The notes beneath the pieces were generated by a model, which had not been told where the DNA came from, did no database searches, and saw nothing but the letters and a program-made list of their open reading frames with translations. From Parahaliea maris (GTDB lineage: Bacteria; Pseudomonadota; Gammaproteobacteria; Pseudomonadales; Halieaceae): a stretch of 64,000 bases of DNA. Below, one piece after another: positions 41,843 to 46,867 of this stretch. The DNA lies in NCBI RefSeq assembly GCF_008064665.1, contig NZ_VRZA01000002.1, positions 620,001 to 684,000 of the forward strand, read 5' to 3'. Position 1 is the first letter of the stretch. Every line of letters begins with the position of its first letter. Position numbers and translations under genes: made by a program.

Positions 41843-42643
41843 ATGAGTGACGACAAGCCAGCCGGCCAGGAAAGCGCTTCCCTTATCGAGTCCCTGTTAC
41901 GCCTCAGCGGCCAGGTGGCTGGTGGTACCCTGGAGCTGGCTCGCAGCACCGCCACCCTGACCGCCATGTTCGGTGAGTCCTGGCTGCGACAGGCGCTCAA
42001 TGCCAGCCTTGAGCCCGAGCGCCTGGAGGCCATGGCCGAAGCCGGCCACTTCCTGCGCGACGCGCGGGAAACGGCCGGTATGACCCTCAAGGACCTGGCC
42101 GACAGCCTGGGCGTGTCGGACAAGCGTATTCTCGAGGATGTGGAAAGCGGTGAGCGCATCATGCCCCTGGAACTGGTATTGCGTTCCGCGTCGCTGCTGG
42201 CGCGGCACGACCCCATTCCCTTCCTCCTGAAGTTCATGCGCACCTACAATCCGGAACTGGAAAAGACCCTCGAGAGCTGGGGAGTCATGGCCCTGCCGCG
42301 CCAGTACGAGCGGGAGCGTCGCTTCATCAATCTCTACCGCAAGCACGATATCCTGCGTTCGTTTACCGACGCCGAGTTCCAGCGCTATCTCGAGTACATG
42401 GAAAGCTCGTCCAACCTGGTGCTGGAATTGATGGCGCGAGAGAAAGAGGCGAATACCCCTCGCTCGCGCAAGTCCGCAGGCCGCAAGGCCACGACTGCAA
42501 AGGCCGGTGGTGGCAAGACGAAGTCTGCAAAGGGCTCTCCGAGCGGGGCCAAATCACGAAAAAGCACTCCGCGGGAGGCCGCTCCGAAAAAGGCTGCCCC
42601 GCGGGCCAGCCGGTCCGGCACCGGGCGTAGCGAGGAGAATTGA
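41843..42643 (+). CDS. XRE-type helix-turn-helix protein with basic Lys/Ala-rich tail
   Basis: A 266-residue protein. Residues about 70-125 form a helix-turn-helix of the Cro/C1 type (FLRDARETAGMTLKDLADSL, then GVSDKRILEDVESGERIMPL). A helical segment follows (EKTLESWGVMALPRQYERERRFINLY). The last 60 residues are extremely rich in Lys, Ala, Ser, Pro and Arg (KSAGRKATTAKAGGGKTKSA), as in histone H1-like tails. The ATG at 41843 is preceded by a GGCTATACT at 41801-41809 that could be its -10. Its likely action is DNA binding with non-specific contacts by the tail. The stop codon overlaps the first possible start of rlmKL. Confidence 0.8.
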   Translation: MSDDKPAGQESASLIESLLRLSGQVAGGTLELARSTATLTAMFGESWLRQALNASLEPERLEAMAEAGHFLRDARETAGMTLKDLADSLGVSDKRILEDVESGERIMPLELVLRSASLLARHDPIPFLLKFMRTYNPELEKTLESWGVMALPRQYERERRFINLYRKHDILRSFTDAEFQRYLEYMESSSNLVLELMAREKEANTPRSRKSAGRKATTAKAGGGKTKSAKGSPSGAKSRKSTPREAAPKKAAPRASRSGTGRSEEN

Positions 42644-42645
42644 AT

Positions 42646-44889
42646 TTGAGTACCAACGGCCGTTCTGAGCAAGGCCGCTCCAGCAGCCATTTCGCCTGGT
42701 TTGCCACCTGCCCGAAGGGTATCGAGGCGTTACTGGCCCATGAACTCGACACCCTGGGTGCAACGGCCGTCCGCGAAACCGTGGCGGGTGTTCACTTCGA
42801 GGGGCCGCTGGCGGCGGGCTACCGGGCCTGCCTCTGGTCGCGCCTGGCCAATCGGGTACTGCTGCCCCTGGCCACGGTGGACGCAGGGGATGCGGACCAG
42901 CTCTATGCCGGCCTGAAGTCACTGGACTGGCGGGAGTGGCTGGAAGTTCGCCAGACCTTCGCCATCGACTTCAGCGGACAGAACCGCGCCATCCGCAACA
43001 CCCAGTTTGGCGCCCAGCGCAGCAAGGATGCCGTGGTTGACTGGTTTCAGGAACGTCTCGGCCGGCGGCCGTCGGTGGAGAAGCGCGACCCGGACCTGCG
43101 CTTCAACATTCGCCTGGCGAAGGATCGCGCCATGGTGGCCCTGGATATGGTGGGTGGCAGCCTGCACCGGCGCGGCTACCGCAGCGAGGCGGGCGCGGCG
43201 CCGCTCAAGGAAAACCTGGCCGCGGCCATCCTGTTACGTGCCGACTGGCCCGGTATGGCGGCACGGGGCGGGGCATTGATCGACCCCATGTGCGGGTCCG
43301 GGACCCTGCTGCTCGAAGGGGCAATGATGGCGGCAGATATCGCACCGGCGCTGGAGCGGCGGCGCTTCGGTTTTGAAGCCTGGCGGGGCCACAACGCGCC
43401 CCAGTGGCAGGCGATTCTCAGCGACGCCCGGGGCCGGGCGGAGCGGGGCAGGGCCCGCCAGTTGCCGGAGATTCGCGGCTATGATGCCGACGGCCGGGTT
43501 GTACGCCGGGCCCAGGAAAACATCGCCCGGCTGGGGCTGGAACGCAGTGTGCGGGTGGTGCGCAAGTCCCTCGCCGAGTTGCGCCGGCCGACGCACCTGC
43601 CCATTCCCGAGGGGCTGATTGTCTGCAACCCGCCCTACGGTGAGCGGCTCGGCGAAAAGGAGAGCCTGCGCTACCTGTACCGGGAACTCGGGGAGGCCAT
43701 GAAGCGCGAGTTCGGCGAGTGGCAGGCCGCGATATTCACCTCTGACATCGAGCTGGGCCGGGCCATCGGTTTGCGCAGTCACCGCCAGTACAAACTGTTC
43801 AACGGCGCCTTGCCCTCGAGCCTGCTGCTCTTCGAGCTCAGGGACAATCGCCTGACTGACCAGGCGCCCGCCTCCGCTGGTGCTGCGCAACCGGAAAACG
43901 CTTCGGGCAGTGAGCCGGCGGCCCCAGTCGCGCTGACAGAGGGGGCAACCATGTTTGCCAACCGCCTGCGCAAGAACCGGCGTCGCCTGAATGCCTGGGT
44001 CAAGCGCGAGGGCATCGAGTGCTATCGCCTCTACGACGCCGACATGCCAGAGTACGCGGTTGCGGTTGATCTCTACGGCTCCCGGGTGCACGTGGCTGAA
44101 TACCGTGCGCCCGCCGGTGTCGACCCGGACGCTGCCAGCCGCAGGCTGGATGAGGTGTTATCGGCTCTGCCGGAGGCGCTCGGCGTTGCTTCTGCCGATA
44201 TTGCCTGCAAGGTTCGACAGCGTCAGCGGGGCAGTGAGCAGTACACCCGCCAGGGTAGCCGGGGCGAGTATCTCAGTGTGCGGGAAGGGCAGGTGAAGTT
44301 GCTGGTGAACCTGCACGATTATCTCGACACCGGCCTGTTCCTCGATCACCGGCCGCTGCGCCAGCGCATAGCCGCTGAAGCCCGCGGCCGCGATTTCCTG
44401 AACCTGTTCTGCTATACCGGTGCAGCAACGGTGCACGCCGCCGTGGGTGGCGCGCGTTCCACCACCAGTGTGGACCTGTCCAACACCTACCTTGGCTGGT
44501 TGCGCAAAAACCTCGCGCACAATGGTCTGGCGGAGAACCGCAACCATATCGTGCGCAGCGACTGCCTCGCCTGGCTGCAGCAGGGCGGGGATGATTTCGA
44601 CCTGATCATGCTGGACCCCCCTTCGTTCTCCAATTCGCGCGCCGTGAAGGACAGCTTCGACGTGCAGCGCGATCACGACACGCTGGTCCGGGCGGCAATG
44701 TCCCGCTTGCGACCGGGGGGGCAATTGTACTTTTCCAATAACCGCCGGGGCTTCCGCCTCACCCCGGAACTGGCGGAGGAATTTGACTGCCAGGACATCA
44801 CCCGGGAGACCCTCGATCCGGACTTTGTCCGCAACCCGAAAATTCATGTCTGCTTCAGCCTGCGGCACCGTGGCGGCGGCCCGCAATGA
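42646..44889 (+). CDS. rlmL: Fused 23S rRNA methyltransferase RlmKL
   Basis: Methylates 23S rRNA G2445 (N2, RlmL part) and G2069 (N7, RlmK part). The 747 residues comprise a THUMP domain (about 10-160), a class I methyltransferase with DPMCGSGTLLLEGAMMA (about 209-225) and NPPYGERLG, and a second Rossmann methyltransferase with LNLFCYTGAATVHAAVGGA and LDPPSFSNSRAVKD. The start is a TTG; I chose 42646 because AGGAG lies 8 bases upstream. A TTG at 42640 overlaps the previous stop but is only 2 bases from that site. An upstream-coupled translation is likely. Confidence 0.95.
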   Translation: MSTNGRSEQGRSSSHFAWFATCPKGIEALLAHELDTLGATAVRETVAGVHFEGPLAAGYRACLWSRLANRVLLPLATVDAGDADQLYAGLKSLDWREWLEVRQTFAIDFSGQNRAIRNTQFGAQRSKDAVVDWFQERLGRRPSVEKRDPDLRFNIRLAKDRAMVALDMVGGSLHRRGYRSEAGAAPLKENLAAAILLRADWPGMAARGGALIDPMCGSGTLLLEGAMMAADIAPALERRRFGFEAWRGHNAPQWQAILSDARGRAERGRARQLPEIRGYDADGRVVRRAQENIARLGLERSVRVVRKSLAELRRPTHLPIPEGLIVCNPPYGERLGEKESLRYLYRELGEAMKREFGEWQAAIFTSDIELGRAIGLRSHRQYKLFNGALPSSLLLFELRDNRLTDQAPASAGAAQPENASGSEPAAPVALTEGATMFANRLRKNRRRLNAWVKREGIECYRLYDADMPEYAVAVDLYGSRVHVAEYRAPAGVDPDAASRRLDEVLSALPEALGVASADIACKVRQRQRGSEQYTRQGSRGEYLSVREGQVKLLVNLHDYLDTGLFLDHRPLRQRIAAEARGRDFLNLFCYTGAATVHAAVGGARSTTSVDLSNTYLGWLRKNLAHNGLAENRNHIVRSDCLAWLQQGGDDFDLIMLDPPSFSNSRAVKDSFDVQRDHDTLVRAAMSRLRPGGQLYFSNNRRGFRLTPELAEEFDCQDITRETLDPDFVRNPKIHVCFSLRHRGGGPQ

Positions 44890-45206
44890 CCGCCACGCTT
44901 GTTTGACACAAAACTGACATCCGCGACAGGTAAGGGCTTTCGGGTAAGTGTCTACAAACCCAGGTGCGTCGACTATCCACATCGTGGCAACGCACTGCCA
45001 CGAAAAAGGCTAATGACTAGTAGCTTGTGAAGTTCCGAATTTAACTTACTGAAAATTAACAGGAAAAAACTCGGCTCAGGCACTGGGGCCGGGAAGGTGC
45101 CGCTGTCAGGGTTCCAGTTTGGTTTCCGCCAGAATCCCGCTGTCCCCAAAGTTATCCACAGGCAGTCCTGTGGATAACCCGGGTTATTGCGGGCGGGTGG
45201 ATCGCT
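44890..45206. other. Intergenic region with DnaA boxes and AT-rich patch
   Basis: 317 bp without a gene between the ends of rlmKL and the reductase at 45207. It contains a DnaA-box-like CTATCCACA (44973-44981, 8 of 9 matches) next to a perfect 7-base inverted repeat (44983-44989 with 44996-45002). An AT-rich run (45031-45070, 11 of 40 G+C by hand count) follows, then a perfect palindrome of two head-to-head DnaA boxes (45151-45178). The layout resembles replication-origin architecture but dnaA, dnaN and gidA are not adjacent. Confidence 0.65.
45151..45178. promoter_or_regulatory. Two inverted perfect DnaA boxes (TTATCCACA)
   Basis: GTTATCCACAGG (45151-45162), spacer CAGT, CCTGTGGATAAC (45167-45178), a perfect 12-base palindrome. 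Each arm contains the exact consensus DnaA box: 45152-45160 and 45169-45177. Two perfect 9-mers in one 28 bp site are unlikely by chance in GC-rich DNA. It could also be read as a stem-loop after the convergent genes, but no T-run follows. Confidence 0.6.
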
Positions 45207-46232
45207 TCAGGTGGGGGCGGCGAGTTTTAGCAACTGCTTGCCCTGGTTGCGCCCATCAAACAGCCTCAGCAGGGTGTCGGGAATCCGTTCAAAGCCCTCC
45301 TGGATGTCTTCCCGCCAGGCAATTTCACCGGCCGCAACCCACGCTCCGAGGTCGGCGTAGGCGGCTTCGGCTTCCGCCAGGAAATCAATCACAATGAAAC
45401 CCTGCATGCGGATCCGGCGGGTCACCAGTTTCATCAGATTGTGAGGCCCGGGTGCAGGGTGCTCGTCGTTGTAGCCGGCAATAGCACCACAGAGCACGAT
45501 GCGGCCGAAGTCGGCCATTTGCTCGATGCCGGCTTCGAGCGTCTCGCCACCCACGTTGTCGAAGAATACGTCGATCCCCATCGGACAGCGGCTGGCCAGC
45601 TCCGCCGCCACGTCCTGGTGGCGGTAGTCGATGACCTCCTCGATCCGGCATTGCTCTCGCAACCACCGGCATTTGTCCTCGCCACCGGCAATGCCGATGA
45701 CCCGGCAGCCCTTGATGCGCGCGATCTGGGCGACCACCGAGCCAGTGGCCCCGGCGGCACCTGACACCAGCACCGTTTCACCGGCCTTTGGCTGGCCGAC
45801 CTTCAGCAGGCCGAAATAGGCCGTCAAACTGGTGGCACCGAAGACGCTCAGGGCCATCGCGGGGGGAGTGCCGTCGGGCAGGACCCGGGGCGGCATGGGC
45901 GAGGCGGGGTCACCGATACTGTACTCCTGCCAGTTGAGAATGCCCTGTACCAGGGCGCCCACCGGAATATCCGGATTTTCTGACGCGATAACCTGGCCGA
46001 CGCCACTGGCGCGCATGGGCTCCCCCAGCGGGACCGGAGGGAGATAGGAGGGTTCGTCTTCCACCCACCCGCGCATGGCGGGGTCGAAACTGAGCATGAG
46101 CGTCCTGATCAGTACCTGGCCGGCGGCCAGGTCGGGGCTTGGGAGAGGGGAGCTGACCAGTTCGAAATGCTCCGGACCGATCATCCCCTCCGGCCGCGCT
46201 TTCAGCAGCCACTGTCGGTTGCTCTGACTCAT
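45207..46232 (-). CDS. MDR-family NADP-dependent oxidoreductase (prostaglandin/leukotriene reductase-like)
   Basis: A 341-residue zinc-free medium-chain dehydrogenase/reductase, of the YncB/CurA and leukotriene B4 dehydrogenase group. These reduce the double bond of alpha,beta-unsaturated ketones and aldehydes with NADPH. Seen are the N-terminal catalytic fold (FELVSSPLPSPDLAAGQVLI; LSFDPAMRGW), the cofactor motif VSGAAGATGSVVAQIA (about 151-166) and GGEDKCRWL with a Lys suited to the NADP 2'-phosphate. FDNVGGETLEAGI is the family DNVGG signature. GGAAGGG precedes the ATG at 46232. Physiological substrate unknown. Confidence 0.93.
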   Translation of the reverse strand: MSQSNRQWLLKARPEGMIGPEHFELVSSPLPSPDLAAGQVLIRTLMLSFDPAMRGWVEDEPSYLPPVPLGEPMRASGVGQVIASENPDIPVGALVQGILNWQEYSIGDPASPMPPRVLPDGTPPAMALSVFGATSLTAYFGLLKVGQPKAGETVLVSGAAGATGSVVAQIARIKGCRVIGIAGGEDKCRWLREQCRIEEVIDYRHQDVAAELASRCPMGIDVFFDNVGGETLEAGIEQMADFGRIVLCGAIAGYNDEHPAPGPHNLMKLVTRRIRMQGFIVIDFLAEAEAAYADLGAWVAAGEIAWREDIQEGFERIPDTLLRLFDGRNQGKQLLKLAAPT

Positions 46233-46399
46233 CAAGGCCCTTCCTTTTTTTACTTGTTGGCAGCGGGGGCAGGGCGCCCCGGGAGAGGGTGGCATTACAG
46301 CACTGGACTGGTGGCACCGCCAGCGCGGGAATGACAGATTGCCTCCGGCTGTGTTGAAATCGGGGCTTTGGTCACAAAAATCGAACCGGTTCCGCTGCG

Positions 46400-46867
46400 T
46401 TGAAAACACTGTTGATCGTGTACCACAGCCAGAGCGGCGCCAGTGCCCGACTGGCCCGGGCACTGTGGCGCGGCGCCTGCGCCGAGGCTGTCGGCGACAG
46501 CAATCTGGTCGTTGTGCTGCGCCGGGCCTGCGACAGTGGCAGCGCCGAATTGCTGGAGGCCAGTGCCCTGGTGCTGGTGGGCGCGGAGAATTCCGGGGCC
46601 CTGAGTGGCGGCATCAAGGACTATCTCGACCGGGTGTTCTACCCCCTGATAGCCCACTCGCGGGTGCTGCCCTACGGTCTGGTGTTGTCGGCGGGAAACG
46701 ATGGCCGCAATGCCCTGCGGCAGGCGCGGCGGATACTGTCGGGTATCCCGTTTACGGAGGCGACCGAACCCCTCATCTGTCGCGGGCCGGTGACCGGGGA
46801 ACATCTTGGGGAATGCGAAGCGCTGGGTGAGGCACTGGTGGCCGGCCTGGCAATGGGGATATTTTGA
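46400..46867 (+). CDS. Flavodoxin-like FMN-binding protein / NAD(P)H oxidoreductase
   Basis: The 155-residue protein opens with MKTLLIVYHSQSGASARLARAL. The SQSGASAR segment is the FMN phosphate loop of flavodoxins and related NAD(P)H oxidoreductases. GAENSGALSGGIKDYLDRVFYPLI provides the isoalloxazine contacts typical of the flavodoxin-like/WrbA-related families. A TTG start is required because no ATG or GTG precedes the conserved first strand, and no good Shine-Dalgarno is visible, so the exact start is uncertain. It is divergent from the MDR reductase by 167 bp and 9 bases ahead of the thioesterase gene. Confidence 0.75.
   Translation: MKTLLIVYHSQSGASARLARALWRGACAEAVGDSNLVVVLRRACDSGSAELLEASALVLVGAENSGALSGGIKDYLDRVFYPLIAHSRVLPYGLVLSAGNDGRNALRQARRILSGIPFTEATEPLICRGPVTGEHLGECEALGEALVAGLAMGIF

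Follow-up and report, generated by a model that had tools for sequence, protein, structure and literature searches.

The non-coding gap between two convergent genes of Parahaliea maris, rlmL and an oxidoreductase gene, contains a group of DnaA boxes that is probably a Halieaceae variant of a DARS-type locus (DARS, DnaA-reactivating sequence). Its core geometry, an IHF-type site and matches to sequence models point to this assignment, and such an element would most likely promote the release of ADP from DnaA. It is classed as a variant rather than as a plain DARS member because its 8-bp spacer between boxes I and II departs from the spacing that the DARS cores share. The analysis started from a 64,000-nt stretch of contig NZ_VRZA01000002.1 (positions 620,001 to 684,000), here called the window, whose features are given in Table 1. 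Among named sequences, the closest to its rlmL comes from Parahaliea mediterranea (84% identity; Halieaceae, Cellvibrionales).

Table 1. Features of the element and its neighbouring genes in the P. maris window.
Feature	Position	Strand	Remarks
DnaA box I (TTATCCACA)	45169..45177	-	opposed to boxes II and III
DnaA box II (TTATCCACA)	45152..45160	+	exact match
DnaA box III, degenerate (CTGTCCCCA)	45140..45148	+	3 bp from box II
IHF-type site, degenerate (TAACTTACTGAAA)	45042..45054	+	2 mismatches to TAAnnnnTTGATW; 98 nt after box II
DnaA box IV (CTATCCACA)	44973..44981	+	171 nt after box II
Conserved block V (GGTAAGTGTCTACAAAC)	44943..44959	+	column conservation in the 50-sequence alignment
AT-rich stretch	45014..45070	.	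68% AT against 36% in the window; contains the IHF-type site
rlmL (23S rRNA methyltransferase)	42640..44889	+	Pfam UPF0020, RlmL_1st, THUMP, Methyltrans_SAM
Zinc-binding-dehydrogenase-type oxidoreductase	45207..46463	-	Pfam ADH_N_2, ADH_zinc_N

The palindrome consists of GTTATCCACAGG (45151-45162), the loop CAGT and CCTGTGGATAAC (45167-45178), a perfect 12-bp inverted repeat that encloses two exact TTATCCACA boxes. The original prediction had described it correctly in coordinates and sequence, along with the position of a further box (box IV here) and the AT-rich patch between the boxes; box III, the IHF-type site and block V were absent from it. When the minus strand is read, box I opposes boxes II and III, with spacers of 8 bp (I-II) and 3 bp (II-III), and beyond them follow the IHF-type site, the fourth box and the further conserved block. 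The best 50-mer of the AT-rich stretch is equalled by 0.15% of the 50-mers in the window. The IHF-type site has two mismatches, thus the case for IHF binding is weaker in this genome. Block V (17 bp) is strongly conserved and matches no known binding consensus, including that of Fis, to which it was compared by eye. In three loci of another family (L229, L231 and L233), half-sites of block V seem, again by eye, to be present in inverted order.

The window contains two matches to TTATNCACA, both in the palindrome (mean of 0.44 in 100 shuffles, 11 of which reached two). Two DnaA boxes in 64 kb are by themselves unremarkable; the rare feature is the tight opposed pair. The arrangement TTATCCACA-N8-TGTGGATAA has a single occurrence in the whole 4.85-Mb genome, which excludes a common genomic repeat, a possibility that had been raised for the palindrome. 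There are 38 TTATNCACA matches in the genome, against 22 for the reversed control, and arithmetic from these 38 gives a chance expectation of about 3e-4 opposed pairs per genome with a spacer of 5-8 bp.

The recharging of DnaA at DARS sites is known from E. coli. The DARS common core is described as three boxes, spaced alike at both DARS, with box I opposite boxes II and III (PMC5742627), and opposed DnaA molecules on boxes I and II are described as releasing ADP (PMC8682772, PMC5742627). DARS1, as measured in the E. coli bioD-uvrB gap, reads I(+)-5-II(-)-3-III(-). The window element shares its box order, its orientation, the 3-bp II-III spacing and the 12-mer CCTGTGGATAAC, and thereby has the three-box core with box I opposite II and III, albeit with a degenerate box III; its I-II spacer, however, is 8 bp rather than 5 bp. 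The DARS1 gap has no match to the IHF consensus with up to one mismatch, whereas most Halieaceae elements carry one. The E. coli rppH-mutH interval contains a trio with DARS1 spacing, presumably the DARS2 core, followed by IHF-type sites, and a second trio-like stretch downstream. As in DARS2, IHF-type sites lie on the box III side in the relatives (38 of 50 elements), while the site is weak in the window. The minus-strand IHF-type site of DARS2 comes 87 nt after box II, as opposed to 98 nt in the window, and a further DnaA box comes after 189 nt, as opposed to 171-183 nt in Halieaceae elements. DARS2 differs in its 5-bp I-II spacer and in the orientation of that further box, which is not the one of the Halieaceae box IV.

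The palindrome is conserved in relatives. Thirty Halieaceae rlmL loci were taken by gene, from the best 30 among 53 matching genomes. In 25 of the 30, an exact TTATCCACA occurs no more than 450 bp behind rlmL, and 25 of the 30 likewise have an element under the picking rule, namely the anchor TTATNCACA plus either CCCCA or an opposed box. Sixteen of these loci have the exact opposed pair with an 8-bp spacer and two have it with a 5-bp spacer; in 12 the pair is not exact. Among 51 non-redundant elements, which include 30 loci (L158-L187) fetched by means of the exact pair, the spacer is 8 bp in 36 and 5 bp in five, and 10 lack an exact partner. More widely, the exact opposed pair (spacer 4-10 bp) is found once each in 52 of 140 Halieaceae genomes (0 for the reversed control), and in genus g13 it is found in 0 of 57 genomes. 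Because of the picking rule and the pair-fetched loci, the invariance of box II, the counts for box III and the absence of compensatory changes are partly due to construction. This applies above all to box II, identical in all 43 rows of alignment A1 (see below), as these rows are anchored on it. Box III is CTGTCCCCA or CTATCCCCA in 29 of the 51 elements, with kindred variants in most of the others; it mostly reads CTRTCCCCA and lies 3 bp from box II.

Outside the three-box core, 38 of 50 elements have an IHF-type site with at most one mismatch at 96-100 nt beyond box II, and in 23 of them it is exact; in 200 shuffles the mean count was 0.27 and the highest 2 of 50. Box IV, with at most one mismatch, lies 169-184 nt after box II in 44 of 50. 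As box III gave no orientation for locus L164, this locus is left out of the 50-sequence alignment and the counts from it; counts of 51 include it. In this alignment, conservation takes the form of sharp blocks separated by unconserved spacers.

A model (R1) was built from alignment A1, whose 43 sequences comprise 27 of the 51 elements (including L032 of the window) and 16 of 24 loci from other families, with no E. coli sequence. In E. coli, R1 matches DARS1 (30.3 bits), DARS2 (19.4 bits), the second trio-like stretch (18.1 bits) and datA (17.0 bits), and it has no match in five control stretches. A second model, R2, also without E. coli, was built from 30 matches in 28 non-Halieaceae loci picked by R1; 30 such loci had been fetched, of which L253 and L273 were left out. 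It recovers the window element (29.0 bits, E 7.5e-8), DARS1 (34.1 bits, E 1.9e-9) and DARS2 (24.1 bits, E 2.5e-6), matches datA weakly (14.9 bits), and has a match with E up to 0.01 in 27 of the 30 Halieaceae rlmL loci. R2 is not fully independent of the window, since its loci were picked by R1 and R1 contains the window element.

Across 391 genomes of the order, the exact opposed pair with a spacer of 5-8 bp is found in 46, and its reversed control in none. Eight of the 46 are Halieaceae, all with the 8-bp spacer. For the other 38 genomes 47 exact pairs are listed, of which 46 have the E. coli 5-bp spacer and one has 6 bp. At an E-value cut-off of 0.01, R1 has matches in 382 of the 391 genomes, representing 135 of the 137 genera of the order, counts that rest on rough model E-values, contain some weak matches and were inspected for a subset of loci. 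A box III with at most two mismatches to TTWTNCACA is present on the better side in 19 of the 24 loci from other families, and on the other side in none; in nine (families f14, f16 and f45) the best IHF match is at 96-98 nt on the minus strand, and 9 of the 24 have a fourth box, an exact TTWTNCACA, at 201-204 nt from box I.

The P. maris genome (G000) has a second locus of this type. Besides the window, R1 finds one further locus (C18:79298-79436; L288 1501-1639), the other two matches being reverse readings of the two palindromes. This locus has the box order and the 3-bp II-III spacing of the window element and a further GTGCATAA box downstream; unlike the window element, it has a 5-bp I-II spacer, a Fis-type match at 63 nt and a weaker IHF match. 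A queD-family gene (Pfam PTPS) adjoins it, and in G035 the second locus likewise lies beside such a gene. Two well-scoring loci each are present in G002, G035, G013, G034 and G019, as well as in G200 from another family, while G036 has one, and G015 has one strong and one weak. All eight Halieaceae loci of this second type that were examined have the 5-bp spacer, so that, in spacing, the window element seems to be the derived one of the pair. In all eight the best Fis-type match in the scanned 41-90 nt starts at nt 63 (with 1, 1, 3, 2, 3, 4, 1 and 1 mismatches), and only two have an IHF match at 98 nt with at most one mismatch.

Fis-type matches are also found in other families. In the 20 of the 24 other-family loci that were scanned, the best match is at 62-64 nt in 14, with at most two mismatches in 10. 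Among the 51 rlmL-linked elements, L159, which has a 5-bp I-II spacer, is the only one with such a match (at most two mismatches at 62-64 nt), and the best match in the window, at 106 nt, has three mismatches, a level that 11% of shuffles attain; both results come from a scan that misses the known Fis sites of DARS2. For that E. coli control the best match has four mismatches, equalled by 85.5% of shuffles, and DARS2 activity is described as Fis-dependent (PMC4245941). In four loci of family f8 (L234, L236, L237 and L241), the opposed pair is accompanied by a Fis-type match at 62-63 nt, with no IHF-type site at about 97 nt.

On the chromosome, the Halieaceae element lies near the terminus. A dif pattern was searched with up to three mismatches and gave one match each in nine of 12 genomes; this site we take to be dif. 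In six Halieaceae genomes with dif and an rlmL-linked element on one contig (G000, G034, G035, G019, G022 and G027, the elements of G022 and G027 being without the exact pair), the two are about 225-318 kb apart, and in G015, which has a weak element, the distance is 197 kb. Measured along the dnaA-dif arm, the element sits at a fraction of 0.85 in G035 and 0.89 in G034. In other families the fraction is about 0.88 (G200), 0.69-0.70 (G360 and G393) and 0.28 (G301), some of the lengths being rounded, and for G322 and G391, in which the dif search had no match, the locus is at about 0.4 of the half-chromosome. As the place varies outside Halieaceae, the terminus-proximal position is a Halieaceae feature rather than a general one. 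In E. coli, the published map minutes give about 0.64 for DARS1 and about 0.42 for DARS2, the latter being mid-arm at 64.0 min (PMC4585315).

This position bears on the suggestion that the element is a chromosomal origin, main or secondary. The DnaA boxes and the AT-rich patch had led the original prediction to it; however, the element is close to the terminus, dnaA is on another contig (C17, the element being on C16), and the skew does not turn here. GC skew is positive throughout the window, and in G035, which is a single contig, 20 sampled values change sign at 2.15-2.25 Mb, next to dif (2.17 Mb) and away from the element (2.49 Mb). Neither the turn in skew nor the position opposite dif that would mark an oriC is seen. 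The refuting conditions named with the original prediction thus gave a mixed outcome, since the skew has no inflection here although the palindrome recurs in relatives and is not a widespread repeat. In addition, E. coli oriC has no match to R1 or R2, and in 11 dnaA loci of relatives (3 kb each, in which the whole oriC is not necessarily included) R1 gives at most partial matches of 15.9 bits. An origin can therefore be given almost no credence. Control of the adjacent genes by DnaA, also proposed originally, is not supported, as both neighbours converge on the gap and no sigma-70 promoter-like site was found. A transcription-terminator hairpin between the convergent genes would account for the 12-bp stem with its 4-nt loop and for the RNA fold z-scores (-2.8 for the plus strand, -5.0 for the minus strand), but it is very improbable. 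No terminator-like site, that is, a G+C-rich hairpin followed by a T run, was found, and there is no Rfam match up to E 1. Inverted repeats of at least 9 bp are made by the boxes in 18 of the 30 rlmL loci and by anything else in only two (L035 and L037), and the 12 loci without an exact pair have no substitute hairpin except in L037. In the A1 stem 95.9% of 387 cells pair and there are no two-sided changes; this absence of compensatory change is weak evidence, as most A1 rows were selected for exact boxes. The core is also carried among different genes in two other-family loci that were examined, whose surroundings differ from rlmL. An RNA element or terminator was rejected on these grounds, the repeat being box-made rather than conserved in its pairing.

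Two further alternatives retain the element as a site for DnaA. One is a datA-type site, where IHF-bent DNA would gather ATP-DnaA and speed ATP hydrolysis, or simply titrate DnaA. The IHF-type site lies between boxes II/III and box IV, in the way that DnaA boxes flank the IHF site of datA, which has the exact IHF consensus, and both models match datA weakly. Against this, those matches are partial, the best beginning at model position 16-18, past box I; the scanned datA gap has no opposed trio; four boxes would provide little titration; and E. coli datA is mapped at 94.6 min, near oriC at 84.6 min (PMC4585315), whereas the Halieaceae site is near dif. A datA-type site is thus unlikely. The earlier proposal of a datA-like site came close in so far as it meant a chromosomal DnaA-control site, but the layout fits the DARS core better than datA. 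The other alternative, less likely again, is a DnaA/IHF nucleoprotein site that kept the anatomy of a DARS while reactivation was lost in Halieaceae, and that has another terminus-related role; nucleoid organisation or a late-replication checkpoint would be examples. The changed I-II spacer, the frequent loss of the exact pair, the 5 bp kept by the second loci and the unexplained block V would be in agreement with this. However, most elements have box IV and the IHF-type site at fixed places, suggesting selection for a DnaA/IHF assembly, and no separate role was found.

The DARS-type reading remains the probable one, with the 8-bp I-II spacer, the degenerate box III, the two mismatches in the IHF-type site of the window, the inexact pair in 12 of 30 loci, its absence from genus g13, the incomplete independence of R2, the weak datA matches and the Fis scan that misses the DARS2 sites speaking against it. 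Under it, ADP-DnaA would bind boxes I and II, which oppose each other, as well as box III, the weaker one, and the opposed AAA+ domains would meet head to head, upon which ADP would be released. Apo-DnaA would then depart and take up ATP, restoring the initiator for the next round, and IHF at the central site would assist by bending the DNA. DnaA binding, IHF binding, ADP release and an effect on the timing of initiation are all predicted here from sequence. A more elaborate proposal is doubtful: DARS-type sites may be general in the order, with the task split in Halieaceae between a standard 5-bp, Fis-type site by the queD-family gene and a derived, Fis-independent 8-bp site behind rlmL. The 8-bp spacer would then impose another head-to-head arrangement of the DnaA dimer, and the late replication of the rlmL site would link DnaA recharging to the end of the round. 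This is made less likely by the failure of the Fis scan on DARS2 and by the varying position in other families.

In the literature, the DARS2 core is called specific to gammaproteobacteria related to E. coli (PMC4245941), a comparison of DARS covers eight species, Vibrio cholerae and Shewanella denitrificans among them (PMC8682772), and the range of DARS is given as E. coli-proximal beta- or gammaproteobacteria (PMC5742627). In the open-access literature, no title among the matches listed concerned DARS in Cellvibrionales or Pseudomonas. If the assignment is true, a DARS-type element in Halieaceae and their relatives would allow the DnaA nucleotide cycle to be tested at a greater distance from E. 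coli. One genome naturally has both the 5-bp and the 8-bp form, and these would provide a ready comparison of spacing with the DnaA dimer, and also one for chromosomal position as a timer of reactivation.

Locus L243 (genome G449, from another family) has nine exact TTATCCACA boxes within about 220 bp. G291 has three additional matches to the DnaA C-terminal domain besides dnaA (C2:107410, 336632 and 338871). On contig C12 of G377, exact DARS-type opposed pairs are located at 152709, 178562 and 250971, all within 100 kb.
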